From Protonemura montana (Eukaryota; Arthropoda; Insecta; Plecoptera; Nemouridae), in the NCBI GenBank assembly GCA_947568835.1, contig OX387606.1, forward strand, positions 14,260,001-14,324,000: a stretch of 64,000 bases of DNA, read 5' to 3'. The stretch's first letter is position 1. The number at the start of each line of letters is the position of its first letter. The translations under genes were made by a program, and so were the position numbers. The notes under the pieces are model-generated. The model had not been told where the DNA came from. It saw nothing but the letters and a program-made list of their open reading frames with translations, and searched no databases. This document shows, piece by piece, positions 921-55,000 of this stretch.

Positions 921-14753
<13,833 letters not shown>

Positions 14754-15751: not shown

Positions 15752-18700
15752 TCAAGGAATGTAAGATGAAGTGTCCATGTTTTCCGCAGCCATTTTCCTA
15801 TCAATCCAGGGTCTGAACTGAGCGATGTCGACGTACACGCCAGGAGTCCTGTTTTCGCCGCAACCGATGCCCCAGGCAACGATGCCAGCTTGTTGGTATT
15901 TTGATGGGTCACTGAGCAATGGGCACACTAAAGGACTGCCTCCATCCCCCTATTGCAAACAAACACACAAGGTCTTTAAAAACAGAGACGAAACAAAAGA
16001 AATATTTACAACTAGTAATAAATCACATTCAGAGCAGAAAAAATGTCAGTAATTTTCATCAAGTTTTACACTAATTCGAATGCCACAAGCCCTGCCCGTG
16101 TCCAAGAGAAGGTTTTCTTGCTCTTATTGTCTGAGAACTTTGAATATTTGGCCTTATACAGTCATTTTTACTCTGTTATACATTTGGACACGGTCCATTT
16201 GATTCTGCCGATCCAGTCTGGAGAGTTCGGAAATTTTGAATCATGCTTTATTGCTTTGAATTATTTTATGTTTTCTAGGATTTCTATAAATAAGATTAAA
16301 CGCCATTAATCCATGTATCTTACGGTGCAAGCGTCATTTCCTGGCTCCCCTCCGGCACAAATAAAGCTCTCGTGGAGCTTGAATCGAGGTCCAAGACGAG
16401 TCTTGCGCAAATCTGCTTGGCATTGCGTGCGAGGCACGATGGGCAGATCCCGCTTCTTCAGAATCACCTGGTATGTGCCGTTTTGGCCTGCAAAGAACAC
16501 AGTGGCATCGTACAGAAATTTACTCTGTTGTGTTGATTCAGTCTGGACCAGGTAACCATCGGCAGAAACCTTTTTTAAGTGCTCTTCGTCCCACATTTCA
16601 CACATTTTGCTGATGCTGCATTGACCTCATTCTCAAAAATACTGGATATACCATCACAGATAAATGAATTCTTTCTACATCTGTTCCATAAATAATATGT
16701 TTGTTGTAAAGAACTGTGTTTTCCCAAACCAACTGCCCCAGTAAAAAAATTGGAATTGGATGCCTAATTTGTCCAGTTCTAGAACGAAAAACTAAGAGTC
16801 TTCCAATAACTAGCTTTTTGAAAGTTTTCCATTGCAACCTTTGTAATTTTATTTATTCCTGTCATTTTAATGTACCTATGCACTTAATGAGGCATAATAT
16901 CTAACTAGGTGTAATAATTGAACAGCTTCGTGTAGGCACAAACAAACTCCACAAAAACTGTCAGCTTTCTAGAAAGCCGCTTACCATAAACGTCGCGGCC
17001 CCATCCGCTGGTGAAGCATCGGCTCCTGTCGAACACGGTTCCAGCATTGGGCAGACATATAGTGCCGATATGTTGATCATCTTGCACCGGTGTCTCGAGG
17101 AAAAGTAGCGCGACATCGCTGTAAAGCGTCTTCGGAGTGTACTTCTCGTGAATCACAATGCTGTTTACGAACATGTCCTGGTAGGGGAAAGGCTCGCTTG
17201 TCGTCTGAGTGTCCCATTCTCCAGCACGAATAACAAGGTCGGCAGCCTGGTGTCTGGAAATTTTAAATGGTTGATTATTTAGAGAAAACAACAAAACATA
17301 GTTTTAACAGGTTCTGTATAAGAACTAATATCTTCAATCTTCAATTACACCCTAAGGTCCTCCACCTAAAATCTATTGCTAATTCGTTGAATTTTGAGAA
17401 TATTTGCTAAATTCCAAACTCAAAGCTACTAAGTGTCTGCAACTGACAACCCAACCCATACTGCAGTTACATTCAGTTTTGAAACTTTTGACTTGACACT
17501 TTTTGGCTCTACTTTCTCTATTGAACAATCTCCTCTCCTTATTTCGATCAAATGCGAAGCACACTTCTAGGAATAGAACCGATAGAACTGAAGGTTGTAA
17601 GAAAATGTGTTTGTAAATAGAAATTGAGTAAATAACAACATCGACAGATGTCAACACATAATCAAATAAATAAATGTCACGACGAAGTATAATGATATTC
17701 ATCAACTCGGAACTCCAATTTTATTGACCTAACGGTTTGGCGTGTTGGAAACACCGGTTTATATGAGATCACCAAAGTTAAGCAACACTGCGCTGAGTCA
17801 GATATTGGATGGGTGACCATCATACACATGGCCAGTTCAGTTCAGTTCGGGAGAGAGGTTAGAGGTATGATTGTTAGTACAGCAACATCTTTCGCCTTAC
17901 TCATCAACCGCTCGACAGCATGGATTTGTGGAGGAATCCTGCTGTTCGAGTTGTACCGTCCTTCGGAAGGGACGTTAAGCCAGTGATCCCCAATTGGTGC
18001 TATTTGACAGGAGTAGGCTACGTGCCGTCACCGGGTTTAACCTCCTTCCTTCTAGGCTAGGTTAGGTTCATATCTTCCTCATCATCATCCACTCATTCAC
18101 CGATGCCATTAGACTAGTGCCACAGGGCCCATTGTCAAAACAGTGCGTCGTTAAACACAATAATCAATCAATTAATCCAACATGATTCCTCAGCTATTGC
18201 AAGCTCTTTGGATGTTTAAGTAGTCAGTGCTCGCGTGCTTGATGGTTTCAGAGAACTGTTGCTTAACGTCGGTGAACAGAGATAGTTTTGATATTGGATG
18301 AATCTAGGATCTCCCCAGCAACAGTTTTTTGTGAACTCACCTAGACTCAAGTTCACAAATTAGTCTAACGTTCGAGCGCTAACAATAGCGTACATGCTAT
18401 AACATTTGTGCGTTGACCCAAAGTCATCAAATTCATCTTATATGTTTTTGTTTTTGTTTTGGTAATTTGCTAGATTTTCATTTTACTTCCTTAATGATAT
18501 CATCCTTATTTTTCAAGCAAATAAACCTTTGTCAAATGTACTAGCTATACAAGAAATGACAAGAATGTACGTGAATCCCTAATGGGTTGTTTTCCTCACA
18601 GTAATTGAGACACCAAAGTTATAAGATTAATGATTGCCATTAAACATAATCACTTGGTACATCATCGCGATTTTGTTTATAAGTACTTTTTAATGCGTCT

Positions 18701-18766
18701 ACTGATAGCTGAGTTCAAGGTTCTAAATTGCAATAATAATAATAATAATATAATAATATAATAATA

Positions 18767-18798
<32 letters not shown>

Positions 18799-21700
18799 TA
18801 ATAATATAATGTTTATTTCAGAACATTTAGTGCTCTAGATCAAAGGGACGTCAATAATATTTAGAACGAATCGCGTCACTCCATTGACACGCAATTGATT
18901 CGAATGGACCACGACCGAGTTTACTTAAATTCATCAACCCCACTGTGCCATTAGAATCTAGAAAATCTAGTAAATCTAGAACACTATGCCAATAGCTCTC
19001 ACTGAACACAGATAACAACTGTCTGAACCGCACGAAACAAGTTGATAACCAAAATTTAATTATTTTATGTTTAAAGATTCAATCCTGGTAATCGGTTTTT
19101 CGTGTTGTGGTTTTCCGTAATTTCCCACAACCACTTCAGATGCTGGAAAGTTCCTCTACCAATGGACACAACCGTTTCTTTGCCCCTCGATTAAAAGAAT
19201 TCCCAGCCTATCCTGACGAGAACAAGGTTTAAAAATTTGGTTTGACCAACATTTTCTGTGACAACTAATTCAAATATCTTAGTTACTCCGCATGTGATAT
19301 GGTAATCGTTTCGACTACCACTTTAAAGGTGAGAACATGTTAAAACCCGAAACTAGCCAAAACTAACAAAATTAAACTAGCTGCGAACCCCTTTGCTGCG
19401 AAGCTTCGCCTCCTGAGTCCATTCGGCTCTGTTTACGCTTTGAGGGGTTTCAAAATTATGTGCATTTGAAAACCCTACTCTAGTCCCTGCTCTAGACTCT
19501 CTATAAGTAGCCGTCTTTTATGTTACCTTGTACAACTATGAAGCCAGAAGAAGTAAATTGTGGAAGGTGGTGGTCGTTTTTGGTTTAGTATAGTTCATAA
19601 AAGGGCAATGTAATACGATCTACTATTCGAGTAATATTTCCTAGATTGCTTACTTACCCATCGACGCAATGAGCTGCAGTGAGAACAACGCTGTTACTGA
19701 TAAGCGACCCTCCACACTGGTACAGAGGTACTCCGTTCTTCTGGGCCGCGATAGCCACCATCCAAGGGAACTCGCCGAACTCCGACTCTCCTAGGAGGTC
19801 TCCGATGATACAGAAGCCGACGCCATCAGGGTTACGGTGGCCACATCCTTGGTGATGCCCTGTCGGGGGTTCGGGAATGTACACACCGCCAGTACCACCT
19901 CCTTCACCGCTAGTACCACCTCCTTCACCCGAAGTTCCACCTCCGCTTCCGGGCTCAGGACACGGGGTTTGTTCTTTGCCGAGAACGTTCTCGTTGGGAC
20001 AACATACGTCCAGGTAATTTTCACACTGCTTCTTGTTGATTCTGGTGAGGGAAGAAGGAAATCGTAAACACTGACGCGACCATAAGAATATCACGGATTG
20101 CAATTAACATGGGCAACTTAGCTACATGGGCAAATTAGCTACATGGGCAAATTAGCTACATGGGCTTTGGGCAAATGAATGGGCAATGCGCATTGGCACA
20201 TGAACAGGCAACGTACAGGCACACGATTTCTTATTCTGACCTGGTCGAGTAGTTTTGTAGTAAATTTGACAAATATTTGGGAAATTTAGTAGCCCTTTAC
20301 TTAGCATTCAAAACCCAGTTCAAATAGTTTTTCTAAAAACTTGTGCTAAGGATAAATTAAATAGACATGAGTCTAAAAACTAAAAATGTGTTCCAGGTAT
20401 ACGCGAGGGTTTCATGACCTTAAGGTTTCATTCCGAACCATGGTGATCATGGTTGCCTCGCGATTTCAGCACCATAACATTTAAGTTGATTGAGGCCCCC
20501 CCCCCCCCCCCCCCTATCCCCACCAGGCCCCTTACAAAATTTTAATTCTTCGCGTTCTGACGTCAAAGATGATATCCATACACGTCTTTTAAACCACTGC
20601 TACACTGGTATAGGTTGGATTATAGGATAATAACATAAACCATTCTGGCAGGACTCTGAAATATATTCAGTTTTGCAACTTCTTTCTTTCTGCGCAACCA
20701 CTGGCACGAAGAAAAACGCACGTAAACCTGTCCTCCAGGAAGGTTAAAGCAAAGTTAACCAGTTCCCCGGCGTCCCCGCCTCCGCCCGTGCCATCGCAGG
20801 CCATCGTTGCCCAGCGGCCATCGCGAGCGTCGAACTCAGCGCTACCCGCTGACCTCCAACGCCCCTATGCAAAGCAGGCATCTGGTAGGGGTTTTCCTAA
20901 AGCCTCCTAAAGACTCAACCTGAACGCAAGGAAAATTTCCTTGTCGCGGACTTTCCTGTCGCTTGCAAACGCGTTGCCCAACGCAACCATAGCTTCTTTA
21001 TTTGTCACTCGTTCAAAATCTGCGTCCAAAGCAATGTTCGTGAACCTAATCTGAGTCGCTTTGTATTTATTTTCTTCTGCTTTTGCTAGTTGCGCCTCCA
21101 ACCCCGCTCCCTCCACCTTCATGTTTATTTCGGTTAAAACATTCAACACACTAAATAAACACAAGCGACTTTTTTTGGGACTAGTGAAATTGGAGATTTT
21201 GCTTCGCTCGCTACCCTCGTCAGTTGTTTTTTTTGTCTAGTTGATTTGTTATGGCAATTGTTTTGTTTATGGTCCATGGACGTTTTTCAATAATGCATTA
21301 TCTTCTATTCTACTGTGATTTCCGCTCACAATCACAGGTAACTATGGTACACTCCATCATATCTAGAGTTTCCATCATATCTCTTCACGATCTATTCACA
21401 TCTATTCACATATTGTATATGGATGAAACCATTAATTGTGTTAATTTTTACTCGAACATAAATTTGCTCCACCCCAAAACCAATGTAGATTCTGTTGAGT
21501 TCTGATATTATAGACAACTGGGATTCAGACGCTTAGTAAAGTCATAAAAAACACATCAAACTGACTGACCTGATGTCGATTATATTTTCGCCTCCATGGA
21601 ATTCCTCGCAGGCTCCTGCATCCTGATGCACGACGGGTTCTGTACTGCACAAGTGGTAAGGGACACATGTGCATTCTTGGCTGCTGTCATCTCCTGATCT

Positions 21701-21985
21701 CAGACTAGTTCCACCAGTAGCCAGTTGTCTGGACCTGGGTTTCACTGCAGCGGGCTTTGCAGGAGATGGCGGAGCCGCCGCTGGTTTTCCAGGAGGCTTT
21801 CCACCAGGCTTTCCGGCAGCGGGAGCAGCAGCGGGTTTTGGTTTCTTGTTGCCACCACCAAACCTATTGGGTACATCACTGTCCGCATATTCTTCTTGAT
21901 CACGGTTTGAGCATGTCAGCTGGCTGTTCGCTTCGTACACGCAGATACACGCAAGTATGGCAAGACAGAGTAAATATTTACTCAT
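15752..21985 (-). CDS. clip-domain serine protease homologue (non-catalytic, masquerade/PPAF type)
   Basis: Five coding exons, 21570-21985, 19658-20041, 16985-17253, 16324-16487 and 15752-15949, encode 476 aa. Residues 1-21 are a signal peptide (MSKYLLCLAILACICVYEANS). A low-complexity Pro/Ala/Lys/Gly stretch follows, then a clip domain (CTCVPYHLC, IDIR, CENYLDVCC) split across exons 1 and 2, then a tandem GGGTSGE linker at residues 172-191. The chymotrypsin-like domain starts around FGEFPWMVAI. His263 (TAAHC) and Asp313 (YSDVALL) remain, but the catalytic Ser is Gly414 (GDGGSPLVCP), so it should be proteolytically dead. Known relatives act as cofactors for prophenoloxidase activation or as pattern-recognition/adhesion proteins in haemolymph. 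There is no R-IVGG activation site, as is usual in this class. The stop follows TSSYIP. Function in this species is inferred. Confidence 0.94.
17741..18175 (+). mobile_element. 5S rRNA-derived SINE (SINE3-like)
   Basis: The head aligns with 5S rRNA and keeps the internal promoter: GAGATCACCAAAGTTAAGC (box A region) and TTGGATGGGTGACC (box C region), spaced about as in 5S genes. The body continues beyond the 120 nt of 5S. It includes GTCCTTCGGAAGGGAC followed by GTTAAGCC, similar to a conserved central motif seen in many marine-invertebrate SINEs, and ends in GTCGTTAAACACAATAATCA, an A-rich tail. Length past the 5S part and the tail argue for a retroposon, not a functional 5S gene. No clear target duplication was found. 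It lies antisense in an intron of the SPH gene. Confidence 0.8.
18732..18811. repeat. (AAT)n microsatellite
   Basis: Imperfect run of TAA/AAT triplets with occasional TATAAT phase breaks, within the SPH intron. Confidence 0.9.
20107..20166. repeat. 17-bp tandem repeat, about 3.5 copies
   Basis: The unit ACATGGGCAAATTAGCT is repeated with one base change in the first copy and a diverging last copy. It sits about 65 bp upstream of the acceptor of SPH exon 2. Confidence 0.85.
20496..20514. repeat. poly(C) tract, 19 bp
   Basis: Uninterrupted C run in the first coding intron of the SPH gene. Homopolymers this long are prone to length errors in assemblies. Confidence 0.9.
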
Positions 21986-22199
21986 TTCTGTAAAATGAAA
22001 AGCAACTGTTATGCCTGGTAATATGACTAAAATAGGTACAAAATGTAAACAGCAACCTCGGTCTTGGAGTATGACGTTGAAAGTGACATTGGATATTGTT
22101 GACCTCGAGTTTTCAAGAGAGTGGTTCGAATATAATCTTATTCAAAATCTAGAATGCAAATAACAGTAGCCGGTGCTAAACGAAGATGTGTTTACTTAC

Positions 22200-25074: not shown

Positions 25075-28000
25075 TTAAAATATCTGTAAAAAAAGACAGA
25101 AAACCATTACAAATAGGTACTCATTATTCTGGAAAGAAAGGCGAAAATAAGGAGCCAAAATCCCAACCATTAAGTCCACATATAAGTCAGCAAATTGAAT
25201 CAATCATGTTATTTCTCTGTTTGTTATTTGTATCCAGTAATTTTATCCAATTATGTGCAGTAAACACATGACAAAATCACAATTTTTCATGATATATTAA
25301 ATAAAAATATGTAAAAGGAACATTACAATCAAAAACAGATGCATACTAGATACTTCATTACCTTGGTGACGAGGCCTGCAGCAACGGTGATCCCCCCAAC
25401 CCTGAGCATGAATCGACCGAGCTCCTTGACGTTCTGGTAGAGCTCCATGCCAACGGGCCGAGCGGTCGTGATCTCTACGAGCGCGGTGGAGTTCCGCGCT
25501 AAGCACCGTGGCCTCCGTTTCACAACCTCGCCACTGCTTTTGTGCAACTGCGCCACTAGTCGAGTCACCACCGCCTGCTCCAGCAAGGACTGGTGGTGCA
25601 AAATTACCTGCAAGGCAAAATACATAGTTTCTTCTGTGTTGGTTGCACATTTTTGGCAATGGCCCTGAGGCAGTTACTTGTTACATAACGGCACCATCTG
25701 ATAATTATGTACAAAAATGTTCCTAGTCTAGAACAAAAGGTAAAGTACCGGTGACAAAACATTGCCTAATTTTTTATTTTTTTATTTATAAACACACTAC
25801 CATCACAAAAATGGGTACCTAATCAGGAAATCGAACCCCGGACTCCACCCTTTGCAGGTGCTGCTCTGAACATCTGAGCTTGTTGGATGATGTAAGTGTA
25901 TTTGAAGAGAATAATTGAGTAATGTAGTAATTGAAATGTAATGAGTAATTCAAGTATGAAATTCTCCAAGGTTATTTACAGACTGAACTCTATGAGGTGA
26001 TGTTATGACAAAGCAGAAGTAAAGAGATTAGATGGATTTTATAAATGCAACCAGAATTAAGTTGTTAAAAAAATAGGTGTCGTAAAAATAGCAACAAAGA
26101 GAGCATGAAAATAGTACCGGTTGAACTGTGAAACTAATGCCTCGTACTAACCGTGCATCCCTTGGTGATGGGTATGTCGATGTTGAAAACGACGATACGA
26201 GCTTCAAACTTGGACGTGACTGGGATGGGTTGGGCAGGGTCGCACAGGATGTTCCCGACGGCAACGTTTCCCATGTCGACGCCCGCGAGCGTCAACGACA
26301 CCTGGTCACCGGCATAGCCAGCCGCAGCAGGCATCTCGTCAATTAGCAGCGCTGAACAAACGGACATTTAAAACAAAATAAAAGCCTAATTTGGGAACTC
26401 AAATGAAAGAGTCGAATAGTGGGTAAATATCCTCATTAAATAATGGCACTGATACCAATAATCTTAGCACCAATCCGCAGACAACTTTTGTGCAGAACTG
26501 TTTTGATTGGTTTTGCCTCTAAATGAAAAAAAAAGGTTCTAGTGGTGGCAACTTGTGTGCTGTCCATTGCTTTTAAGTATCCTAAACTATCTTAAAACCA
26601 AAACCTTGTGAAACAACAAATACAAAATATAAATGGTAAAGAATTGCAAAAGGCTGAAAATGGGATTCATAGGTACACAGAATTACCACAGGGATGAGTT
26701 ACGAATGGAAAATAGTTTACCTATAAAGGTCGTAATAAAATCAAAAGAAAGATAGTAGCACGCTTCCAAACTTACTAAAAATAAGCATACCAAAAGCAAA
26801 TCAGTTCCAACATCACAAGAGCAAAGCACGTAAGTCTTTCTCAAGTACAGCAACAACGTAGGATGTCGTCAATTCTGTTCGCCTATGCAGAGTGAGTCCA
26901 CATTTAGCCTGGTTACCTTTGATCTGAGCCGGTTCATTGAGCGGTTGGACCAGTACACGGTCCCCCACCTGGACGGCACCAGTCTCCACTCTGCCAGACA
27001 CGCTGAACCCGGAGCCTACGCCCTTGAAGATGTCGTTCAAAGACATCCGGAATGGCTTTGTGATCGGACGCTCGATTGCCGCAAAGCCGTCTGTAGAGGC
27101 AATTAAAGCAATAAGAATCGGTGATTTGTTAAATCACCGAAACTGGATATTTGAAACTGCATTATAAATGTGGATATATCTTTTGCAATTAAATGGAGAA
27201 ACATTCCCTGAGGTTTTCTAGTAGACTCCTAGTGGGTCATTAAAGAGGTAAGATTAAGAGGTGGTTAAGCAATGAAAAAATATTCCCTTTTCAAATAGTG
27301 CCTAGATGCATTTTTTAAAAGTTCAATGGCAAAGAGTATGTTTTTTTATCGCTAATCATGAGTCCATTACAGAGTCATTTAAAACTCAATGCCTTGCACG
27401 ACATCAACGCAAAATTTTACATGCAGTTTCCCTGCAAAGTGCAAACTCTTATCTTTGCTCCACATTTTGTCATTGTCAACAAGCTGCACTTAAGGCTGAC
27501 CATAAAAAATAATCATAACCACATGGCTCACATTTTGTGAACGCATACCAAGAGTGAATCTGATGTAGTTTCACTGAGACAATTGTTATTTTAGTTTTTT
27601 TTTACATTGTAAACTTATACACCTTCCTCTATTGAAATAAGCTGTATTTACTGCGAATCTGTTGGAATTTTCCTCAGTATACAAATTGAATATTTTTTTC
27701 TGATGGAAACAACACAAAAGAAGTATGAGTGGGACCCAGAATATTCAAATAGCAAATGTGTTGCCAGGTGGAAAGAGCCAAGAGGGCTTCCGAAAACAAG
27801 ACTAAGTTAGAAGAATACACTTTTGAGTCTAGACAGTGGTGCTATAAAGTGTGTCAGGTCACCTTGTCAGATCATGCCTAATCAAAAAAAAAAAACCAAG
27901 ATTCTGAATAAATAATGTTGTATGATTTGGTTTAATTAGCTCCTATTCCAACTCACCGATGACATCCAGCAGACATGGCCCATTGTACCACTGGTTGAGC

Positions 28001-31000
28001 AAGTCTTCAGTGGGCTTAGCTACAAGGTTCTCTCCGGTGAGCCCACTGCACGGAACGAACTTCACATCGCGCTCCCGGAACCCTGCCTGCTTAAGGAAGC
28101 TGCCGAGCTTCTGAACAATTTCCTCGAAGCGGTCCTGCGACCAGCCGACCGTCTCCATCTTGTTCACGGCCACACCCAACTGGCTCACGCCTGTTGAATC
28201 AACCGCATACATTCAGTTGTCAGAGAATTTTAAGCATATGCTCTGATACAATGCTATTTTAGTTCCAAAAACAGGGATTTGTTTAGCAATCTTCCAATTA
28301 AGAACGCTCTCTGTTCTTACCAATATAACTATCAATTGCAGTCTATCACGACATTTGCACTCAAGCAAATTGGATTCCAACAGGTCATTAGCTTGGTTAA
28401 TTAGTACTTTTGCATATTAAGACTTAAAAATACTTATGGAAGTACAACAATCGAAACTGTTTGATTAGTTTACTTTGCCAACATTGAAGCCAGATTATCA
28501 TACGGAATTACACTACGGAGAGGTTCTTCCAAAGCAAAAGGGTTGTTCACCCTAAAAAAACGAGCTCTCAAAGATTGATGGTAAAAGCCAGTACTGACCC
28601 TTGTGCAGAGATCTGGATGAAAGATTCATGTAGACCTCTTTTTAAACATTTTAAATGCCGACTCTCACTAGCTTGTATATTTTTAATGTTTGTTTTTAAT
28701 AATAAGAGCTTGGTAAATTCTGCAACAAATTCTTATGTTACTAGACAGAAATTAAAATATGGGCTTGATGTACCAAATGTATTTAAAAAAAAATGACCTG
28801 TTTATACTGGCAGTTAAACAATGTAATGAGTTCAAACGTTGTCCTAAGCTATATCCTAATGAACATTGATTTTATAGCATAGACAATTTTTTGTACTATA
28901 ACTGACTTTCCTGTATAACATTTTATGTTCTTGTGGAATAAAATAAAAATTATTAATCTACTTTGCCAAATGCCATCTTATCAGCATTACATATTTCTCT
29001 CTCTCTCTCTCTCTCTCCAGCAAGTTTAGAGAAGCTCAAATTTTTCAATGCTTCTAAATATCACAATTAAGCAAAGCTTTGCAAGGCTCCATTCAAATCC
29101 CCAGAACCAACCAGAAAATCTTCAAGATGTGTGAACTATGCGTATGACTATAAAAAAACTAATCTGAACCATCACACACCAAATAAAAGAGTTTCTGGCA
29201 GATCGTCCACATCCCCACCTACCTAAAGATCTCACAAGCAGTGTATGCTCTCGCGTTTGGCCGCCGCTTTCGAACCCTGTCTCAAACTCGCCGCGTGTGG
29301 CGTCAACAACGAGGAATGCGACGTCGGCCTGCGTGGCACCGGTGATCATGTTTGGTATGAAGTCTTTGTGTCCGGGAGCATCCAGCAGTGTCACGCTCTT
29401 CGTAGCAGTCTCGAACTGCGAGTGGCCAACGTCCATAGTCACGCCGCGCGATCTGAAAGCCACCGGAAGGTCAAGATTAGGTGGTTGTGTGGATATGTTA
29501 GTCTTGGATTGTACAAATATGTTGACAAAATTTAGTGTTCTGTAATCTTATTTTTAGAAATGGGCAGGGGCGGCTCGTGAGGGAGGGCTGCGGGGCGGCT
29601 GCACTCCCTAGCATTTTCGACAGAATAAAAGTATAATTGTTATTATAATTACAATTAGAAGTGTTATTACTATTATTATTGTTCTACGCGTTTTGTGTGT
29701 TTTAAAATGGTTGCTACTTTCGAAATACGAAAAAAGGCGCTATTTACGTCGCGCCGACAGCACGAGCTGCCGAATGCAACGAGACGATCCAGTAGGCGGT
29801 TGTCCGCTGCCTATAGAGCATGAACGCCGCCGCTTGCTCTCTTTGGGGCAGCGAGCGCTGCCGTCCTGCCTGCTCAGCTATGAGTGCGTGGTAATGGCCT
29901 TGAACGTGTGTCGCCTGTCGTCGTTCGCAAGCCCAGCGAGGGCAGCAGAAAACCCGCCCTCGGCCAGCCTCGGCCAGCCTCGGTCAGCCGCCGGGCTGAG
30001 CTAGCAGCGAGAGCGAGTGAGACAGAACGATACACACGATCGCACATATTTTCCACGGCAATAGTTTCAAAATAATAGTACTACCGTTTACTAGCCTGAA
30101 TTTCTGTCCCACCTAGTTTCACATACTGTGTACGTTTTTGTGCAATGAAAATTAATCCAATGTGTGACTTGACAGCTAGAATTCAATGATAACTTTTTTT
30201 TTAAATATCACATGTTGAATATCACGATATTGAAATCCTACTACAGTGTTCATTACTTATGGTGCTGGTGGCGATGGGGGGGGGGGGGGGGGGGGATTTT
30301 ACTGCCGCCCCTCCAAGAAAAACAGTCACGAGCCGCCACTGGAAATGGGTATAACAATTGCAATGAAAGCTTTAGTTAAAAAGGCTCTTTTCACAAGGCT
30401 TAATTTTGCGAGACAGCTGTGCGATAGTCTGAATTAACTGGTGGTTTTAATAGTAGGTTTTTGGGCGTTACAAGGCGTTAGCTAAAAGACTTGAGCTTAA
30501 AAGTCTCGGGAATATTGAGACTGACATTTATTGCAGAACTAGGGCTGGAGAACGTTCAGGTCTGCTTCTCTCGAGTTATCCAAATCCATGCAAGCACCAA
30601 ACAAATGGTCCATTTTAAAATGTACAACGCCGCATCGATTTCATCTTATGTTAGAGATTTTTTTTTAATTTCTACCTCTCCTCGCCCGTCTCATCCAGAA
30701 TCCACGCATACACGAACGACTGTTTGCCAATTTTCTTGCTCTCCTGCTCGTATTTGTGCATTGTCTTCTTGTTCACCTGGCCCAGCGAGTACAGCAGGTG
30801 CCCCATCAAAGTACTTTTCCCCGCATCAACGTGGCCTGGAGGATACAATAATACCATCTAGATTTAAATAATCCAGTGCTTTGAATCAAATAACCCAAAA
30901 AAAACCATAACTAAGCGGTCCAATGGTATTCATAGGTGAATAGTGAAACTGTGATGCTCAGGTGAGATTTGACAACTTACAATATTCGATAGCTACAAAT

Positions 31001-34000
31001 AACAGGCCTATAATCTTATTGCAAAACCTTGTCAAGCAGGGCAGCCACACTCGAGTTGTTTTTTATCACTGGTTTACTCTTGAATAATATGCTTTAATAT
31101 GCACAAAAGAAGTGGCATTAAAATTAAAAAGAAACTGCCTTAATGTCACACTTATGTATTGTTGGTGCTAATGGCAAATACCTTAACTCAAGTTCTGGGG
31201 CAATCACAAAAATTGTAAACCTACCGATCACAACCATGTGCAACTGGTCTTTTCTATCTCCTCGTTCAGCTGCGTAGAGAGCGCTCACATTCTTCTCTCG
31301 ATTCCTGAAAGATAAAAAAAAGATAACGCACTTAGCTAGGAAGTTATAGAAACAAGATAAAAAGTCACAGATTTTGCATATTATTTGTACTTATTGCAGA
31401 TTTTTTTCATCAAATTGTCCCTCTTAGTGGATAGATTACTTCATCATTACCTTGTCCACCAATCCCTGACATATTAAAGCTGATAATTTAGTAATTTCTC
31501 AATAGATTACACTCAAGCAAAGCATTTGTTTTCAGTACCGAGGAGTTCTGGAGTCATCTATGGCAGGCGTTGCTCGACCGGAGGAAGGAGACCCCGATCG
31601 AGGAGTCGGACAGTTGGAGTCAGCTTTTAGGCTCTCGTTTCCGTCGGCTACATTGAAGCCCTTAGTGACGTTCTGCTTACGCGTGCCCGAAGGCACCACT
31701 TTAATAGACGGCGTCACAGTGACTGGTGGTACCTATCGTTGAAAATAGATGCACTGCTCAGACCAGCTTGGAAGCTAGTTGATTCTACTTAGTGTAGGGA
31801 CCAGCAAGTTACTTCTTATAGCAATATTATAAGGGAGTATATTTGGGTAGACAAAAACGTAATATTTAAATTAAATCAAAATATTTGTATTTCTTGAATT
31901 GTAGCTTGCATAGACATATCAATCAATCAAGCAGAGTTTATGACAAAGGAACACAAAAAAATGGAATAAAAACAGGATAAGTCTCGTAATCTTATAAAAA
32001 ATGTCAACCTAGTTAGCTAGCAAATGTTACTGTGTTTCTTAGAATACGTTTCCAGTTTGTGGTGTCCAGCCATCGTGGTTTTATGGTTGGTTAACATATG
32101 ATGGAAGTCCAATTGCTTTGCCTTTACATTCCACCGATGGACTGCTTATTGCCCATATCGTTTTCTAGCAATCCGAAACTAACACATCACTTTCGAAGTT
32201 CAATTATCTGGGTTTCTTTAGAGTTTGTTGCATACAAGTTATTACACACAAGTAGAAAAAAAGGTAAGTTGTGGAAGCACACTTGGACTATTTCCATACT
32301 TCTATCAATTCTCGGTGTAAAAATTGGCCTCCATACTTGTTCCAGCCTTTGGAAAAGTATTTAAAATCTTGTCATGGTAGTAAAAAATGAAATAACGCAC
32401 AATATATGGCAGTGTAGGTACCTTGTCCTCAACATTCTGACTGAGGTTGAGGGCGCTAAATTCCACAGCTGGCTCGCTCTGAGTTGTAGAGATGGCTGGT
32501 CTTTTTGCTCCTGCTAAGATCGTAATTTGAAGACAAACATTTGCTGGTGACGTTGATTAGTAGGTAGGACTGAGGCTAGGTACTAGGCACATAAAACAAG
32601 CATTAGACGGTTCAGATAGATCATAGACTGGATAGAAATTACTTCATTTATGTATATTTCAATAGAAAATCAATAGAGTACCTACTGATAAGGAATAAAA
32701 CTCGGGATTTCATACGTCAAAAGGTCAGTCACTCTTTTATTATTGCTATCAAGGAGACATATCTTACACGCATTTCTCATCCCTCAGTTTCTACTTCTGC
32801 CAGATTCTCATATGCTTGTGTCCCAATTTAAATTAACCTCAGAAATACACAATCGCGGTAGCAAGAGATCTCGTTTAGGTTGATTCCTGAAGTAATAAAC
32901 TACTCAAGAGAGTGCAGTATAAATGAATCCACTCCAGTAAATTTAAGAACTTCACACACAGATATTAAAAACTTATTAAGGTACCCAAAGCCTTTTTTTT
33001 ACTAACTTACAGCTTAAAATAAAAGACACTATTGCTAAAAATCTACTGTATTCCAAGTTACTCGAGAGATATAAAAATATTAATTTTTGCAAAATTGGGT
33101 AAATCTACTTCAAATTTCGTCGCAGATGCTTCTTTACAAGATCGTCCGGAGAAGGAGTTTGAAAGTCAAATCGAGATATCTCGTGTAGCACTTCTCTCTG
33201 CTGCTTGTTCAGAAGAGGATTGACACGTTTCAACCACCTACGACATATCACCTTCCCAAACGATGACGCTGACTTGGCTCTCGGCAACCTTGCCTCAACT
33301 ATTAGTCTCGCATTCTCGGCACAGTTGAATTCCTCGATGCAGTGCAACTTTGATAGCCTTTCAACCAAGCCATCATCAACAAAGGCAGAGTGAAATTGGG
33401 TAACCTGTCCGATATTCAATTTATGTCTACGGTTCTCTACTGATTTCAGAGCGCAACTCAAATCAATATTAGGCTCATTTTCAACTCTATTTGAAACAGG
33501 CTTTGGTGTAAATTTAGACTCTTCTAAGTATTCTGGATCTTTTGATGACATAGAAGGTGATTGATTGGAAGAAAGAATTTGAAGGTGAGGATTTGTTTTT
33601 AAATGCTCATTTGCACGATCTGCTAAAGATAAGAATTTACTCTCAGAAATCGGGATTTTTTTGTGTTTTGACATTAGTGAGAAAAAGGATCCTTGTTCCT
33701 CGTCCTCATCACTAGAATTCTCTGTCAAAGTATTAACTTTTTTGAACTGAAATTTAGGAACGTTCAATTTTGAGCTTGAGCTAGATTGAAGTCTCTTTGC
33801 TAATTCATCCATAGGATTATTTCCCGATGGATTGGATGTTGCCATTCTCTCAGAAAGTTTTATATTGGACGGTTTTTCTATAGCCAGTTGAGAAATTCCT
33901 TTCCTGAGAGCATTGACATCTTTGTTTTGTTTAATGCCTCTTAAACTTTTTGCAGGGTGTAAAGGTTCTGTATTCTCATCTTACCTTCCCCATTGCCAGC

Positions 34001-35169
34001 CAAAGAGTCGGAAGATTCGAAGCAAACAGAACAGTAAACAGAACATGAAAAAATAAAGGGCTTGGCGTTAACATATGTGAACCATTACAATGTAAGAACA
34101 ATTCTTCAAGAAGACCATACGTTTTCTCACCTTGATCTTTTCCGATGTCTCTTCTCTCACGTTGACGTTTAGAATGAGGGTCTAAATGGAAAATATATTT
34201 CATTACGAGAAGAAAGGTGTAATTGGACAATGTGAAAGATAAATTTGACAAATTATCAACTAGAGAATTCAATCACCAGCCCTGTCAATCCTTCTTAATA
34301 GTGTGGGTTATCAATATGCATTGGCAACACAACCCACTTCACCGCAACGATTAGAATTCACAGGTTGGGCGGCAAGTCACGTGTGCTTGTGTAATTTGTT
34401 ACGAACACACTGAAGAACTGGAGGAATGTACTTAGTAAGCAATTTAAGAGAAATGAGTAAATAACTGAACTCTTCACCTTCTACTTTTGCTGATGATGCG
34501 GCACTGCTCAAAACTTCATCGAGTGCTGTAGCAACGTTAAATTTATTCTTCAAGACAGTCTCAACGAGAACTTGTTCAGAAACTGTTTCTCCCAAAACAT
34601 TACGAATTTCATCAAGACATGACCTTAACCGTGCTTCATCAATCTCACTAAGTGCAGGTCGATGATAGGTCTCAGAATCACGACGTTGAGGGCCAGCGTT
34701 CTCAGAGTCAAGTTCAGATTCATCAACTTCAGCAATATCATCTTCTTCATTAAGGAAAGCTGCCATTTGCTGGGGTTGTCTGTTGCGGTCGTACATAAAT
34801 GCAGCTAAAAAAAAGTTTAATTCATGTTTTGATGGTTTCACCATGTTCTGTAAATTGTTTATTGTCATTAGATTTATTGACCATAGATTGAATATAAGTC
34901 CCTACCATCGCTCGGTGAAATGGTGTAGTCATCCTCCACTGAATGACCGTAGACATCGTCATAGCCATCATACTCTGCAAAAGATTAAGATATTCACATC
35001 TTGCAAAGCTTGTTTTGGATGAAAGTGGTTTCTGGTACCAAAGATAAGAATGCAAAGCATCCCTCGCATGGCATTCATGTACCAAATAGCCAAATGTGTT
35101 TAAACGAAATAATAATACGATCATACCGTCGGTATAGTTCATAGACCGCACATTTCTGTGGCGTGACAT
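25075..35169 (-). CDS. HBS1: HBS1-like translational GTPase (ribosome rescue), full-length isoform
   Basis: Hbs1 pairs with Pelota/Dom34 to split stalled ribosomes in no-go and non-stop mRNA decay. Exons: 35127-35169, 34906-34974, 34478-34804, 34131-34181, 32422-32510, 31539-31732, 31225-31304, 30676-30835, 29223-29452, 27957-28190, 26917-27090, 26152-26351, 25362-25607, 25075-25083. All phases agree and give 701 aa, close to human HBS1L. The N-terminus MSRHRNVR and the UBA-like segment [13 protein letters not shown] match the family. The GTPase has GHVDAGKS (285-292), RGVTMDV, DAPGH (362-366), NKME (424-427) and SGLTGEN, followed by two beta-barrels ending [11 protein letters not shown]. The last exon is only K-I-F-stop completion and is the least certain; reading through the last donor would give a slightly different tail. 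The exon at 33105-33967 is skipped in this isoform. Confidence 0.94.
25770..25892 (-). mobile_element. tRNA-derived SINE fragment
   Basis: Minus strand shows AAGCTCAG (A-box-like), an anticodon-like loop CTGCAAA, and GGGGTTCGATTTCC (B box), followed by CTGATTAGGTACCCA and an AT-rich tail. The D stem is degraded and the body extends past tRNA length. It shares its post-B-box sequence with the copy near 63190-63290. It lies in an HBS1 intron. Confidence 0.7.
28996..29017. repeat. (CT)n microsatellite
   Basis: About eleven CT dinucleotides within an HBS1 intron. Confidence 0.95.
29565..30341. mobile_element. third non-autonomous hAT-like element (777 bp) in an HBS1 intron
   Basis: Termini CAGGGGCGGCTCGTGA and TCACGAGCCGCCACTG are inverted with one mismatch over 16 bp. 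The perfect 8-bp target duplication GAAATGGG flanks it at 29557-29564 and 30342-30349. The interior is GC-rich and includes a CCTCGGCCAG decamer repeated about three times near 29957-29989, and a 20-bp poly(G) at 30276-30295. No transposase frame is present. Confidence 0.9.
30276..30295. repeat. poly(G) tract, 20 bp
   Basis: Uninterrupted G run inside the hAT-like element, close to its right end. Confidence 0.9.
32736..32741 (-). terminator. candidate poly(A) signal for the SKI7-like isoform
   Basis: AATAAA on the minus strand about 365 bp past the SKI7-like stop codon and before the next HBS1 exon at 32510. This is where an alternative last exon would need to end. Confidence 0.5.
33105..35169 (-). 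CDS. HBS1: SKI7-like splice isoform of HBS1 (alternative terminal exon)
   Basis: Exons 35127-35169, 34906-34974, 34478-34804 and 34131-34181 are shared with HBS1. They would then join 33105-33967, which carries its own stop (TAG at 33105-33107), giving 450 aa with no GTPase domain. The shared exon ends in phase 1 (CAA G). Both possible next exons begin with two bases finishing a Gly or Glu codon, so either choice stays in frame. The terminal exon encodes 287 codons, serine/acidic at first and ending in [11 protein letters not shown] (residues 429-439), a motif I associate with SKI7/HBS1LV3 proteins, which bridge the cytoplasmic exosome and the SKI complex. One gene making both proteins by splicing is known in vertebrates, plants and many fungi. 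The acceptor before AACCT has a weak pyrimidine tract, as a regulated site might. Confidence 0.85.
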
Positions 35170-39800: not shown

Positions 39801-42800
39801 GAAATGCCACAAGAATCGGCAGCATTCAGGACATGGGAATATGGCACCTCGGTCATACACCAATCTAACACAACTTCGAGTTATTATAATCGTTCTATTA
39901 CCTCCTACGTGGACAATGCGAAGAACTAGGATACAATCGAAACAAATTAGCACAGCTTCACAATGGCACGTGCGAATTCCACGGACGACTGCTATTTCCT
40001 AACTAATCCACTTCAATTGGTGCATCTCAAAAATCAAGGCCTTTGGTCTAGTTAAAGTAAAATCATGCTTTGTACATGGGCAATTATAACTCTCTAGGAA
40101 CTAATCACATCTAAAGAGGAACGAAGCATTTTCTGCATGAAGCAACTTCTCGGGTTACAATATATTACACAACAGCTAGGCTCGTATCATTCAGCGATAT
40201 GCCAGGGCATGAGCGGCCGGATGATGCCGCCTTTTCTCGGATGCTGTCGGTTCACTTTTGGCTGGTGCAATCGCTCCGTCGACGGCGTCCCGTTGGCGTG
40301 AGAAGCGATGAACATTTCGGAGAGTGAATAGGAGAGAGAAAAAGACTGACTTAGTGATTCAGCCTAGCCAATTTCTCCCTCCCATTCACGTATCCAATAA
40401 TTGCTGGTCGGCGGCCGCTCAGTTACGATGTCGCCGTCGAAAGGATGCATACCGACTGCAAGCGCGAGCGCCTTGCCGATCCGGGATGATGCTGTGGCTG
40501 CTGGACAAATTGGCGCCAACTGCTGAACCAGTCGCATGACTCAAGGGCAGAACAGTTTTTTGTTATCCAACCAATTTTGGGTGCAGCCGGATGCTTGGTC
40601 ACGTGACGATTGAATGAATGCATAGAGCGTCACCATACGCCATCTTTGATTAGGGGCGGTTAAAAATTAGTTCGCAAATATTAGTCAGTGGAAGAAACGA
40701 TGGTATAGGGGAATGGAATCGTATACCGGGGGCAAGATAAGACCGGATTGACAAAGCAAAGCATTCACAAATCGTGAAGATAACCGGAATGATAAAAAGC
40801 GCAGTTTAGATATGAAAATTTTTTACAAAAAAGTATATTTTCAGGACGCATTTGTAACGTTCACTTTTTGAACCTCGTTATCGCGTCGCAAACCACATAT
40901 ACCCGCGTGAGACCACGCAATTTCCTGCTAACAATACGATTACATTCTACGCTCGGGCTCGACTCACTGATTGACCATTATGAGCTGTAGGAATTTTCCA
41001 TGATGCCCGAGAAGAGAAAGCAACTCGATAAGGCAACGCTCGTTTTAACACAGTTGAAAAGAACTCGTTTTGTTTCTGGTCGGTTAAAGCACCAAATTGC
41101 CAACAAATCTATTCCTGAAACGGGGCCGTCCCGACTGGCACTATTTCGGGCGTCGAAGAAGCCCTCAGATAGCCCAAACAAAATGGCCGTTATTTCATTG
41201 TTGACGATTCGAACTCCACACGATCAATAAGCCGAGCTGTGTATTTCCGTTTCACAAAACATAGCCAAGCTCACTTAACATGTCGCAAAAACAAGCTTGA
41301 ATTGACTTACGCATTATCAAACGATTATGGCACAATATTTTGAAATATGTTGAACGCACTTCAAAAACGCAGAGACGTAGAGAGTACACGCACTATCGCC
41401 AGCCCCAAGAATTCTAATGGCGGCTAGAAGCGTTCGCCGTCTTTCCTTGTGCTACCAGCTCAGACTGCAAGGGGCATCTGATTTGCCCGACGCACGAGCG
41501 CTCCGCCCAGAACTTCTATTGGTGGATATGCGGCAACGCTATTGGCGGCGAGGCACGCTACGATTGCGCCTTTGTAAGGGTGGCCGAGGCCTGGCATTTC
41601 CTAATTCTATGACACCAATAGACGGCGATGTTGTAATGGCCACGTTTCTTGCCGTTTGCCTTCTGTTCTCGTGAACTGATATTTTCATATTTTCATCATT
41701 GCCAAAGAAGAGTCTGATAACGCCAACAAAAAATCAATTTGAATACAATTTTGTTCGATCTGGTGACGAAAGATGGATCGTAGAAATGTCGACACTTGGG
41801 CGAACATACCTACCCAATTTTCTCCCTCTGGCACCGCGTATCTGTTAGTAGGTATGTGAAAGTATGCCATATCTGGATTTTCTAGGAAATTAACTTTTTC
41901 CGTGGCCATTATTATCTGCAGATGCAGCCAACACAAGATTAACCAGAGAAATCTCGTGTTAGACAAATACTAGGAAAAATTAAAACAAGTTGTACATATA
42001 AATAATCGGGGACCCGGTAAATATGCATAAAAGCGTTGTAGCCGAGGTGGCCCCAGGAAATACTATGTTCAAACAAATGCTCCATAACCCCGAAATATAG
42101 CCAGCCGAAAAAAACCCACCCCAATTATGTATGGACCCGACAAGAAACCTCGAGCTCCGTAACCCCTCATACCCATACAAAAAGGAAGACCCCATCGCAG
42201 CTCTCGATATAATACACCGCTGGCCGCGTTAGCCCTGAAATTGGGGGGGGGGGGGGGACAGGGGGCACAGGGAGGGGCACACAGGGCCGCCGCCGCCGCA
42301 CTATAGCGCGTCCGGTCAGTAATCCCGAGGCCCGAGTTCACCCGCTCGATCAGAGGCGCGAGCGCGCGCTTGCGGGGCGATTGCGCAAAAGCATATCGAC
42401 CTTGTCAGGTCAACGACCTCACAGTGACACGTGGAGCAAACATGGCGCAGAAGAGGCGTCGCGTCCCTCGACGCAACGCCTAGACGTCGCCCGCATTACA
42501 CATTTGCAATGGGATGCGTGTCTGTGTGTGTGTGCAATCGCATCATCTGATAACGAATGATGTCGTGATAACGTCCACAATTGATATTACGGAATGAAGT
42601 GCACATGTGATGCCCAGAGACATCGGAGACTGTGTGCGGACGGGTTGCTTGACTCAAATACTTTCCAGGGACTTTCATTTTACGAGGATTACCGATAGAA
42701 TTGTATTAATCAATTTCGCAATCTTAATAGCAATAAAAGATAGCATGGTTGTAGGTACCCAGCTATTTTACCGGACTATTAAAAAAATTGACGATAGTTT

Positions 42801-47701: not shown

Positions 47702-48710
47702 TTAGGGCTTTTTAGGAATACCATCCAACTTAAAATCAATAGGTTTATCATAGCCCATTATTTTAGCAAAGTGGGCTGGTTCTTCAAATAATCGCGCTTC
47801 TACGAACAGTGGTGCTCCTTTGGCCACAAAAGAAGTAAACATTCCAGGGACTTCAGGGACAACCACATCATCAGGGCGAAAAGTGATCTGTAAAGAATAA
47901 TTTCAGAATAAATAAAAACTTTCATGTGTTATATGTGACAAAGCACTGTAGTAAGGAACATTTATTTTACCTTTTTTTTCCGGAGAAAGAAATTTAAGAT
48001 AACAGCAGTATATTCGTTAGTATCATTGTTGTACAGAATTTCTGTGACATATTTCTTGGTGATAATATGAAGAAGGAATGGTGTAACAAATGTAAAGAAG
48101 CCTACTATAGTGCAAGCTGCCACCAGTAATGGCACACTAGATGCAATTGTAGTGCCTTGATAAAACAAAATGGGTTGAGCAACCAGACCACCAATACTGG
48201 TTGATAGGGAGAATATCTTTACAGCTCGTATTTGGGGGGTGAGAATGCCAAAGTACACTTGGGCGGATTTACTGCCATTTAATGTTTTATCTGTAAGATT
48301 CCCAGTTGTTGTTGACGATTTGCATTGTGTCGAAACAGTAAATGGGCGCAGTCTAACAGGGCGAATTGTTCTGTCAACCTGGAAAAGATAATAATTTTAT
48401 TTCAAGATGACCTGGAAAACACTTAAGTGGATGGATACTCTTATAAGATACGTCATTAATTTTATTGTTTAAAGAAAATGAAGATAGATACTGCAATTTA
48501 CAATGCGATATAGTCATACATAACCCTAGTTCACTATCATTATTCAGATAACTCTGCTGTCATTCATTTTTTCCTGAAACAATTGCGCAGACGTCAACTA
48601 AAAGAACAGGTTGGACATACTTTCTTTGAACCGATGGACAATAAGTCTTGAACTATGAACTTATTTAAAATCCCCGTTTTATGTCCAAAAATAAAAAAGT
48701 TGACCGCCAT
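47702..48710 (-). CDS. TMEM70: TMEM70 homologue, mitochondrial ATP-synthase assembly factor
   Basis: TMEM70 is an inner-membrane protein that helps build the c-ring of complex V and also supports complex I assembly. Exons 48621-48710, 47971-48378 and 47702-47887 are all phase 0 and give 227 aa, a little shorter than human. The N-terminus (MAVNFFIFGHKTG) is followed by a basic stretch RTIRPVRLRPF, compatible with a mitochondrial targeting sequence. The family core is clear: VYFGILTPQIRAVKIFSLST, two membrane helices forming a hairpin (around IGGLVAQPILFYQG and LLVAACTIVGFFTFVTPFLL), then HIITKKYVTEIL, and later FRPDDVVVPEVPGMFTSF. The first exon is assigned by its donor (AAA|GTATGT) and phase only, so the exact start is less certain than the rest. 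Confidence 0.9.
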
Positions 48711-52000: not shown

Positions 52001-55000
52001 AGACAATCCAAAAATGATGGGAAATTCTTTACAGTCCAATTGCTTGTTACTGTCCTTTACTGTCCTTTCAGAGAAAACAATTATATAAGTCAACCGATTG
52101 GGCAAGTCCCGTTTACAGAATTCTGGAATCTCTTTTTTTTTGTGTTACAAAAATAGCAACCAAATTTTAAGTGGAAGAGCAATTTAAGCCGTCCTTAGAA
52201 TGTGATCGCAGCCCTTCATCTCCCCCCAAGTCCGAAGATCAGGCTACGCCACCAATGCTTACAGGCAAAGGCGGTTTAAAGTATTTAGCGAGTCAAGCCA
52301 GCCACTGAAGTCGCCACACCTCGGCTACCGCGATAAGCGAACCTGTGGCGTTCTCACCGTTAGCGCCGCTCGCCTTGCCGAGATCGGCGCTCGCGAGGCC
52401 CGCCTCTGAACTCAGCGACAAAAACAGACGGAAAGAGACTAAAGAATAAGGACGCCTGGCATTTTGACAAAATAAACTGGTTGCTTTAGCCTACCTATTA
52501 AAAAAAAATTTTTGAAATTGAAATTAGAGTGGTGCCTGTAAATAGTTTTAATTGTACAGACATTTTAGATTCAGCAGTTCAGAACTGGCCCAAGTTACCA
52601 CAAATGAATCGCTTTGGCTTACTTCGTCATACACACATATAATATCTTACGAGACAAATGTTCTGTTTTGCGGTAGAAGAACTGGCCATACCAATCTTGG
52701 TGCGCTGTTAATGAAAAAAACAACATTGCTTTCTAAAAAACTAAAATTATAATTATTGCAGCATTCAGATTTAATTTGTTGAACCATTGGACATGTCTTC
52801 TTTGGAAGAAACATAATTCCTTTCAATAAACGCCATAAGCATAATTATTTTCACGGTATCCCAATGTAACGACAGTGTCACTTAGGAATTTAAAAAATCG
52901 TTACAACTAAAGGTATGAATTTAAAAATGTTGCAAATCAGCAATTGGGATGACCTAACAAACACAAAAATTATTAGAAATTACACATCTATTAGAAACTT
53001 ACGATTGAAATCGTGTCCCAAACAAGCGGCCCATTCTTCCCTAGAAATCCGGTCGTCGATATCCATGTCGCACATAGCAGCAAAAGTTCGCGCACATCGC
53101 TTGGGCTTGACGACCTTTCTAACGAGGCGCTGCAGGTCTTTGTACTCTTCCTTGACGAGGAATCCATCCGTATTAACATCCAGCTGTGTGAACTTCCACC
53201 CAAGCACAGTGCGGTCGAATTCAGCCGGCTCGGACGGTGCTGCTCCTAGTAAATTAAAAGAACATGTGCTTACCTAATTAAGAATGTTGGAAAACGTTGA
53301 GATTGAGTATTAGATAAATTACCAGCAATAGTGGGCAGTCTCTTGTATTCATTCTTGAAAATACCAAGCAAGTTGTTATTGAATGCAGTTCTCTCTTTTC
53401 GGTCACAATCTGGAAATAAAGATGCTTCTTTGTCAGCTCAAGTTGGCTTCAAATTTAGGTACATAAAGAAAATCTAATATATTTGCCTTTATTCTTTTTG
53501 TTTCCTCGAGCCAATGATGATCTCCTCCTGGTTCCAGGCTTGTTGCCTAGAAAACACAAAGATGACACTATGATGATTTTGTAATATACCATGTGTAATA
53601 TCACAATATTCCAAAAAGATGAAAGCAAGAATTATTTGCTGAAGAGGGGTTGTCGCTGATTTTACGGGAGGCTTATAATACAAAGAACTACATACAAGAA
53701 ACCGTCATTTTAAGTTAAGCTTTTATTACTATCCAAATTTATACGAACACCTGCACTGGAAATTTTAGTAAAGCTCTTAAGCCGCACGCATTCTTCACAG
53801 CCTCCATTCCCTGAGAAAACGCAGCCAAAGAATAGCAAAAGAGCTCTAGGATTTTATGAGCTGTATTTTGGTTGAAAATAGTTAATTATCTACTTGATCA
53901 AGGTAAAATGGTATAATTTTTTAAATTTATGTATACCTATAAAGTGATTGCAGTGTTTTAATAATTATTCGTTGCCTAGGTACAACAGGTCCACCCCTAA
54001 AGAAGATATAACTGCAAAACACCGAGACAAGCTTTCTAGTTTGGTAAGGCTGCCTAAGCTTGTGACTTCAAACTTTGATTTTGGAGACAGCATTGGTTAG
54101 AATAAGGATTTTATCACATCCAACCGTCAATGGTGACATAGAGGTTTTGTGACCCCTACGCTGACTTTTAGTTTCTGTGTGTGTGTTTTTTTTTAATTTG
54201 TTACTTCGGACCCTGGTTCAGTTGCACATTTTTCCAGTCTGGCTCCCCTTCCAACCATCGCTTGCTGGTTTCAGCTCCCTAGTGGAATCACCAGAAAAAC
54301 CAAAAAACCCTGCAACAACCTAAATCTTTCGAGAAATAAAACGGGATTCGAGGAATGGAGTCAGACGTTCTGTCCTGTGGCCATTGAATTAGCATCTCAT
54401 CAAAGAGTTGCTAAGAACTCGCCATTACGAGTCGCCTTAGTCTCTTCCGCCTTGAGGGGATCCCTTATCCCAACCGACAAAAATTGGAGTATGTGTACCC
54501 GGATAGCTCATTTGGTAGAGCACCCCACTGACAATTGGTAGGCCCCAGGTTCTTATCCCAGTTTGGTTGCACATTTTTCCAGTCTAGCTTCTCTTCCAGT
54601 CTTAGAAATTGCAAAGAATTTTTCTAGGGTAAGAAAATGTAGGTTGCTCAGGCTTTCCCACCTGCCTTGCACTTACCTTTTCGCTGGGCACAGTTGGGCT
54701 TGGTGAACTGCACCGAAGTGTTTGGGATTGGCTGCCCCGACGGTTTGACACACCAACAGTAAGCGGACTCCGCGTGGCACTGCACGGGTGCATACGTTCC
54801 ATCTTGGAGGCACGCAGGAACGAAGAACGGGCGGGCGCCGCTTGCCGGCCGGCTTTGACGTTGTGACAGCGTCAGGTCAGACCAGCACGGCTGTACTTCT
54901 ATCAGGAATATCAGTGGAGATATGAGAACGACATGGCCCAGACATGGAAGTATGGATATGTGAGAGTTAACATTTTTTTGAAAGTCATGTGTGGTAGACT

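Follow-up and report, generated by a model that had tools for sequence, protein, structure and literature searches.

HBS1 is a ribosome-rescue protein, and SKI7 is an adaptor that recruits the exosome, an RNA-degrading complex, to stalled ribosomes. We analysed a 64,000-nucleotide stretch of the genome of Protonemura montana (Insecta, Plecoptera; assembly GCA_947568835.1, contig OX387606.1; hereafter the window, with positions counted from its first letter) and found on its reverse strand a locus that is very probably a single HBS1/SKI7 gene of the vertebrate-type arrangement, in which the predicted SKI7 form lacks the GTPase. The initial annotation had proposed an HBS1 gene with a built-in SKI7-like terminal exon, and both heads of such a gene are present: HBS1_N and GTPase domains on one, collinear SKI7 similarity on the other. 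The exons, their phases and both open frames can be read directly from the DNA, and both alternative ends have recognizable homologues.

One gene with two continuations

The exons of the locus are as follows, all on the reverse strand (a slash marks a splice junction).

35127-35169 (-): exon 1, coding part, common to both forms; resembles Hbs1l of 5lzw, MARHRNVRGYNY; GT donor
34906-34974 (-): exon 2, common to both forms
34478-34804 (-): exon 3, common to both forms; UBAh/HBS1_N domain with VLGE (PF08938, E 2.9e-14; HBS1-like 1ufz, E 3.4e-12)
34131-34181 (-): exon 4, final common exon, ending in phase 1; donor AAG/GTGAGA, 10.6 bits
33105-33967 (-): exon 5a, alternative terminal exon; putative SKI7 head of 287 codons and TAG
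32422-32510 (-): exon 5b, first HBS1-only exon; tandem TAGCAG acceptor
31539-31732 (-): exon 6, HBS1 linker; in-frame join, boundary uncertain, donor 1.7 bits
31225-31304 (-): exon 7, GTPase start
30676-30835 (-): exon 8, with a ten-residue motif; in-frame join, covered by the Hbs1l alignment
29223-29452 (-): exon 9, GTPase (PF00009, E 4.8e-20)
27957-28190 (-): exon 10, GTPase (PF00009, E 1.9e-6)
26917-27090 (-): exon 11
26152-26351 (-): exon 12
25362-25607 (-): exon 13, C-terminal domain (PF22594, E 6.8e-23; PF03143, E 2e-9)

Exon 4 spans 51 nucleotides between TTTAG and GTGAG, and its phase 1 end follows from the phase 1 end of the preceding exon. Two next exons fit it. Exon 5b (89 nucleotides between GCAG and GTACC, its product ending NVEDK) leads on towards the GTPase. 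Exon 5a comprises 863 nucleotides after ATACAG and stays open for 287 codons, including the split codon, up to a TAG at 33107-33105; its junction with exon 4 reads DIGKDQ-EPLHPAK. Both joins are in frame. Re-derivation of coordinates and phases thus upheld the annotated phase of exon 4, its exact fit to either continuation and the 287-codon terminal exon with its own stop.

Joined in frame from 35169 to 25362, the 13 exons of the HBS1 form encode 699 residues. A phmmer search of PDB sequences matched them to Hbs1l of 5lzw, which we take to be mammalian, with an E value of 5.6e-207 across residues 1-698 of 699. The score of 692 bits is about twice that of 3mca (344), presumably the Hbs1-type chain of S. 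pombe, of eRF3a in 5lzt (342) and of the best EF1A chain (333), which places this complete eEF1A-like GTPase nearer to Hbs1l than to eRF3 or eEF1A. Over the GTPase region alone the remaining Hbs1 chains score about as eRF3 does, so the assignment to Hbs1 rests on Hbs1l. Pfam recognized HBS1_N, two exons with GTP_EFTU and, for the C-terminal domain, two families. The exon 5b route leads to the GTPase as annotated. The VLGE of exon 3 agrees with the VLGD/E hallmark of the UBAh domain, a domain that binds ubiquitin in mouse according to the accessible passages of PMC13232801. The final few HBS1 codons are less settled: exon 13 may continue to a stop or splice again.

Two side observations concern this layout. 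The tandem acceptor TAG/CAG at 32511-32516 (-), ahead of exon 5b, could add one residue to HBS1. Base composition shifts within 25362-35169 (-), from 39-49% G+C in exons 1-4 and 5a to 49-60% in exons 5b-13 (two boundaries slightly off), and the shift coincides with the start of the HBS1-specific part.

The length of the exon 5a frame exceeds chance expectation. An order-3 Markov model fitted to the window assigns a probability of 1.3e-7 to 286 open codons at one given place. The longest stop-free run of the window, 291 codons, lies at exon 5a, while simulated 64-kb windows reached at most 265 (n=46); the exon 5a segment is likewise the longest among the stop-free segments of the window that reach 70 residues (188 in all). 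Its codon-position bias (chi2 24.6) is higher than in any of 11 controls (maximum 15.7), which are arbitrary stretches of the gene, several containing other exons and one overlapping exon 5a in another frame.

Exon 5a and the anatomy of human SKI7

Four stretches of exon 5a can be placed against human SKI7.

33597-33641 (-): candidate SKI3-binding helix, tentative; LSLA opposite human LSLS of LSLSELIAET
33495-33515 (-): KFTPKPV, opposite human DFVPKPV in the Smith-Waterman alignment
33234-33278 (-): SKI7-like motif, putative RRP43/MTR3 docking; aligned with human ARPSAFASTLCLRY
33135-33170 (-): Patch 4-like motif, putative CSL4 binding, followed by a basic C-terminus

Among 177,635 PDB sequences, the top match of the last 38 residues of exon 5a is human SKI7 at E 0.076 (9g8m chain E, entered under the name HBS1-like protein, isoform 2), with a sole further match at E 6.2. 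For direct comparisons we used 260 residues of human SKI7 (8-267 of the chain) taken from alignments. BLASTP of the exon product recovered a single segment spanning both docking motifs, with 21 of 71 positions identical, 17 gap positions and an E value of 5e-5. The Smith-Waterman score is 108, a value reached by none of 2000 shuffles (mean 40.5, maximum 92). With the last 25-26 residues removed the score is 77, still above the shuffle maximum of 73 (n=2000), which indicates that part of the similarity, FTPKPV opposite FVPKPV included, also lies upstream of them; the serine-rich composition may contribute here.

Among the 188 longer segments of the window (70 residues or more), exon 5a scores 108 by Smith-Waterman and the runner-up 47. 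When human SKI7 was run by BLASTP over all six-frame segments of 30 residues or more, 1290 in number, exon 5a came first (E 0.013; next 0.69). The pattern F[DRK]F...SPDD[ILVM]V has a single match among the same 1290 segments, and this match is the Patch 4-like motif. The comparison with SKI7 proteins that the initial annotation had called for thus does find human SKI7 when made directly; single-sequence profile searches return little or nothing once longer pieces are used, as detailed below.

The partially accessible text of PMC6143672 gives the metazoan Patch 4-like consensus as IaPF[D/R]F[K/D][S/T]aSPDDIV+A and the SKI7-like consensus as A+PShFAahL. The Patch 4-like stretch of exon 5a fits the former at 11 of 17 positions and keeps the core FDF...SPDD(L)V. 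Its SKI7-like stretch pairs with human ARPSAFASTL in the one BLAST segment, at the cost of one inserted residue. As described in the available passages of PMC11540850, human SKI7 places a helix from within residues 555-572 in the cleft between RRP43 and MTR3, binds CSL4 through residues 602-616, touches SKI2 with a helix formed by residues 617-632 and binds SKI3 through a helix that carries L454 and I458. If L454 and I458 are placed on LSELI, the three numbered regions would correspond to LAARPSAFASTLCLRYPL, SPLVAITPFDFKSAS and PDDIVKANQKKAFTR. By this anatomy exon 5a would encode the exosome-binding end of SKI7, and perhaps its SKI-binding middle, without a GTPase.

An AlphaFold model of the exon product alone has a mean predicted local distance difference test score (pLDDT) of 44.4 and a predicted template modelling score (pTM) of 0.21. 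It was too poor for a fold search, and no weight was given to the helices it shows over the SKI3-like stretch and the C-terminal end. The Pfam hit to NAGLU_N on the exon product (E 0.15, 12.3 bits with a cut-off of 28.3) was taken as chance.

The splice choice and competing readings

Two further elements bear on how the short form would be made.

33979-33987 (-): near-perfect donor-like AAG/GTAAGA, a decoy 17 nucleotides upstream of the exon 5a acceptor; 10.3 bits
32736-32741 (-): AATAAA, candidate poly(A) signal for the short form

At 10.3 bits the donor-like sequence is second only to the exon 4 donor (10.6) in a comparison with the 13 modelled donors, which span 1.7-10.6; the scores use base frequencies from recall, not trained on P. 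montana. Sites of at least 10 bits occur at 0.0002 per window base, and one within 50 nucleotides is about a 1% event, tested post hoc. The pyrimidine tract of the 33967 acceptor lies further upstream, with AAG/GTAAGA standing between. The acceptor is moreover ambiguous by 12 nucleotides: a second in-frame acceptor, TAAG/ATGAG, ends at 33980 and would start the exon at 33979, adding four residues. A rare acceptor adding five residues is described for exon 4 in Arabidopsis (PMC6143672, in the part available). As a side observation, the exon 4 frame runs on into the intron without a stop as far as 33979-33987, and a join from there to exon 5b is out of phase.

In the 594 nucleotides (33104-32511) that separate the stop from exon 5b, no AATAAA or ATTAAA occurs apart from the AATAAA at 32741-32736. 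The hexamer annotated as a possible poly(A) signal is present and the only one before exon 5b; as an argument it is weak, being at chance level, and the hexamer was dropped as evidence for the short form.

Several results weigh against a functional SKI7 exon. The 20 bases before the AG of the exon 5a acceptor include 4 pyrimidines (20%), compared with 50-90% in the 12 other modelled acceptors, and at least one AATAAA arises by chance in stretches like the one above with a probability of 0.50 (simulated stretches). Six of the 17 Patch 4-like consensus positions differ (2, 3, 7, 9, 14 and 17), the SKI7-like stretch lacks the consensus proline, and the key phenylalanines of the two motifs, in the same order as in human SKI7, are 30 residues apart instead of 47. 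A 73-residue piece ranks human SKI7 third among PDB sequences (E 0.44); the two matches above it are RelA/SpoT chains at 0.24. With phmmer, neither the whole exon product (303 residues) searched against the PDB nor human SKI7 searched against the 1290 window segments gave a match at E <=10. Free-standing similarity lies chiefly in the last ~70 residues, and the last 25 account for most of it. By tblastn, neither viral nor prokaryote contigs, collections not expected to hold animal genes, contained a relative of the exon; these gave pattern matches only, in 6 and 48 stretches.

Exon 5a might also be a relic, an ancestral SKI7 head that is now scarcely or never spliced in. The pyrimidine-poor acceptor, the strong donor-like sequence just upstream of it and the concentration of similarity at the C-terminus would all suit a decaying exon. 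However, a long-dead exon would accumulate stops, and here all 287 codons are open, at the chance probability given above, with codon-position bias still present. We consider a relic improbable.

Still less probable is a SKI7 of the plant and fungal type, in which exon 5a or part of it would be a cassette spliced on into the GTPase exons. Forms that keep the GTPase are known from plants and fungi (PMC6143672 and PMC3597508, from their accessible parts), and the best in-phase donors of exon 5a exceed the modelled donor of exon 6. Exon 5a nevertheless terminates in an in-frame TAG. It contains 37 GT sites, 10 of them in the phase needed by exon 5b, and the best three of these score 2.3, 2.4 and 3.0 bits. 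All in-phase donors (<=3.0 bits) precede the Patch 4-like motif, so splicing from them would lose it, and a GTPase-keeping cassette form was rejected as unlikely. The TAG end and the weak in-phase donors before the Patch 4-like motif are best fitted by an alternative last exon of the vertebrate type, placed in the intron behind the common exons. That exon 5a is a chance intronic open frame ending in a SKI7-like motif is hardly credible: its composition is serine-rich and its modest similarity escaped phmmer when the full exon product was the query, but its length and its collinear similarity were each tested against chance.

In the vertebrate-type arrangement that we prefer, exons 1-4 would give both proteins a common N-terminus with the UBAh domain, and the choice would be made at the exon 4 donor. 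Skipping to exon 5b would yield HBS1, the GTPase that splits stalled ribosomes with Pelota. Splicing to the weak acceptor at 33967 (or 33979), combined with use of an intronic poly(A) site, would yield a SKI7 form of ~450 residues without a GTPase. Its C-terminus is predicted to dock on the exosome, the SKI7-like motif at RRP43/MTR3 and the Patch 4-like motif at CSL4, and its middle part may hold the SKI complex. This scheme, built from sequence features, presumes that both mRNAs are made, that such a poly(A) site is used, and that the proteins have the binding partners and activities their names imply. The weak acceptor would keep the SKI7 form minor. We further considered, as a speculation that we think unlikely to hold, that U1 and the 3' splice-site machinery compete for the stretch that holds the near-perfect U1 site AAG/GTAAGA and thereby fix the balance between ribosome splitting and exosome recruitment, an ancestral animal switch kept in arthropods.

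Neighbouring genes and known HBS1/SKI7 systems

The window holds several other features, all observed beside the locus. About 5 kb upstream of HBS1 and on the same strand lies a mir-14 precursor at 40327-40386 (-) (RF00752, 60.3 bits with a gathering threshold of 53). Downstream, 16905-22141 (-) contains trypsin-fold exons (PF00089, over the cut-off) and PPAF-2-type clip matches below it (19.8 and 20.9 bits, cut-off 26), presumably a clip-domain serine protease homologue. Both mir-14 and trypsin-fold proteins with PPAF-2-type clip domains are arthropod, mostly insect, features, and they suggest an arthropod. Further exons on the same strand encode a member of the TMEM70/TMEM186/TMEM223 family at 47962-48396 (-) (PF06979, E 1.3e-24), domains of the SPARC calcium-binding type (E 5.3e-13) together with thyroglobulin type-1 domains (E 1.1e-17) at 52980-55073 (-), which we take to be the combination found in SMOC-type matricellular proteins, a bZIP transcription factor at 62518-62787 (-) (PF00170, E 2.6e-13) and tetratricopeptide repeats at 13398-13709 (-), presumably resembling O-GlcNAc transferase. 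On the forward strand there are a 5S rRNA match at 17727-17842 (+) (43.5 bits, gathering 38), perhaps a 5S-derived repeat, and a tRNA-like Rfam match at 54497-54569 (+) (32.7 bits, threshold 29) without an ARAGORN call, perhaps the head of a short interspersed element.

The architecture of the locus is the already known vertebrate one, and its value lies in the lineage and in the unusual acceptor. To our knowledge Drosophila is said to lack Ski7. Hashimoto 2017 reportedly dealt with nonstop decay factors in Drosophila, and Marshall et al. 2018 is said to have surveyed transcriptomes. The P. montana gene perhaps fills a phylum-level gap, the arthropods, in the distribution of SKI7. If the reading is true, an exosome-SKI complex bridge exists in at least some arthropods, and flies, should they lack SKI7, are not representative of the phylum. 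A knock-down of HBS1 through the common exons would then deplete both proteins. Arthropod SKI7 isoforms may already sit unremarked in databases.

Among invertebrates, SKI7-like proteins are described from cnidarians, echinoderms, cephalochordates, molluscs, brachiopods and priapulids (PMC6143672). The main text of that paper never mentions arthropods or insects and mentions Drosophila twice, neither time for a SKI7 isoform. The accessible parts of PMC4342817, PMC5777819, PMC13271354 and PMC13232801 contain nothing bearing on arthropods, and among the papers listed by the literature searches, some of them capped, none describes an arthropod SKI7 isoform, judged by titles, abstract starts and passages.

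Two-in-one HBS1/SKI7 genes, which the initial annotation rightly named for vertebrates, plants and fungi, are documented in the passages available of PMC3597508 (fungi), PMC6143672 (plants), PMC7924785 (zebrafish) and PMC11540850 (human). In yeast the same two functions are performed by Ski7 and Hbs1, but from two separate genes. Plant and fungal HBS1/SKI7 likewise produce two proteins from one locus by alternative splicing; their SKI7 form retains the C-terminal GTPase, whereas the exon found here is terminal. In human HBS1L/HBS1LV3 (SKI7, HBS1L3; 9g8m chain E) the specific part is ~490 residues long (632 minus 144 shared, from the available text of PMC11540850), compared with 287 here; the human protein also has the wider motif gap (47 versus 30) and the proline absent from exon 5a, and the SKI3 helix is tentative here. 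Zebrafish ski7 has its peak at the oocyte-to-embryo transition; according to the part of PMC7924785 available, the specific exon 5 of hbs1l bears both motifs, as exon 5a appears to do in P. montana.

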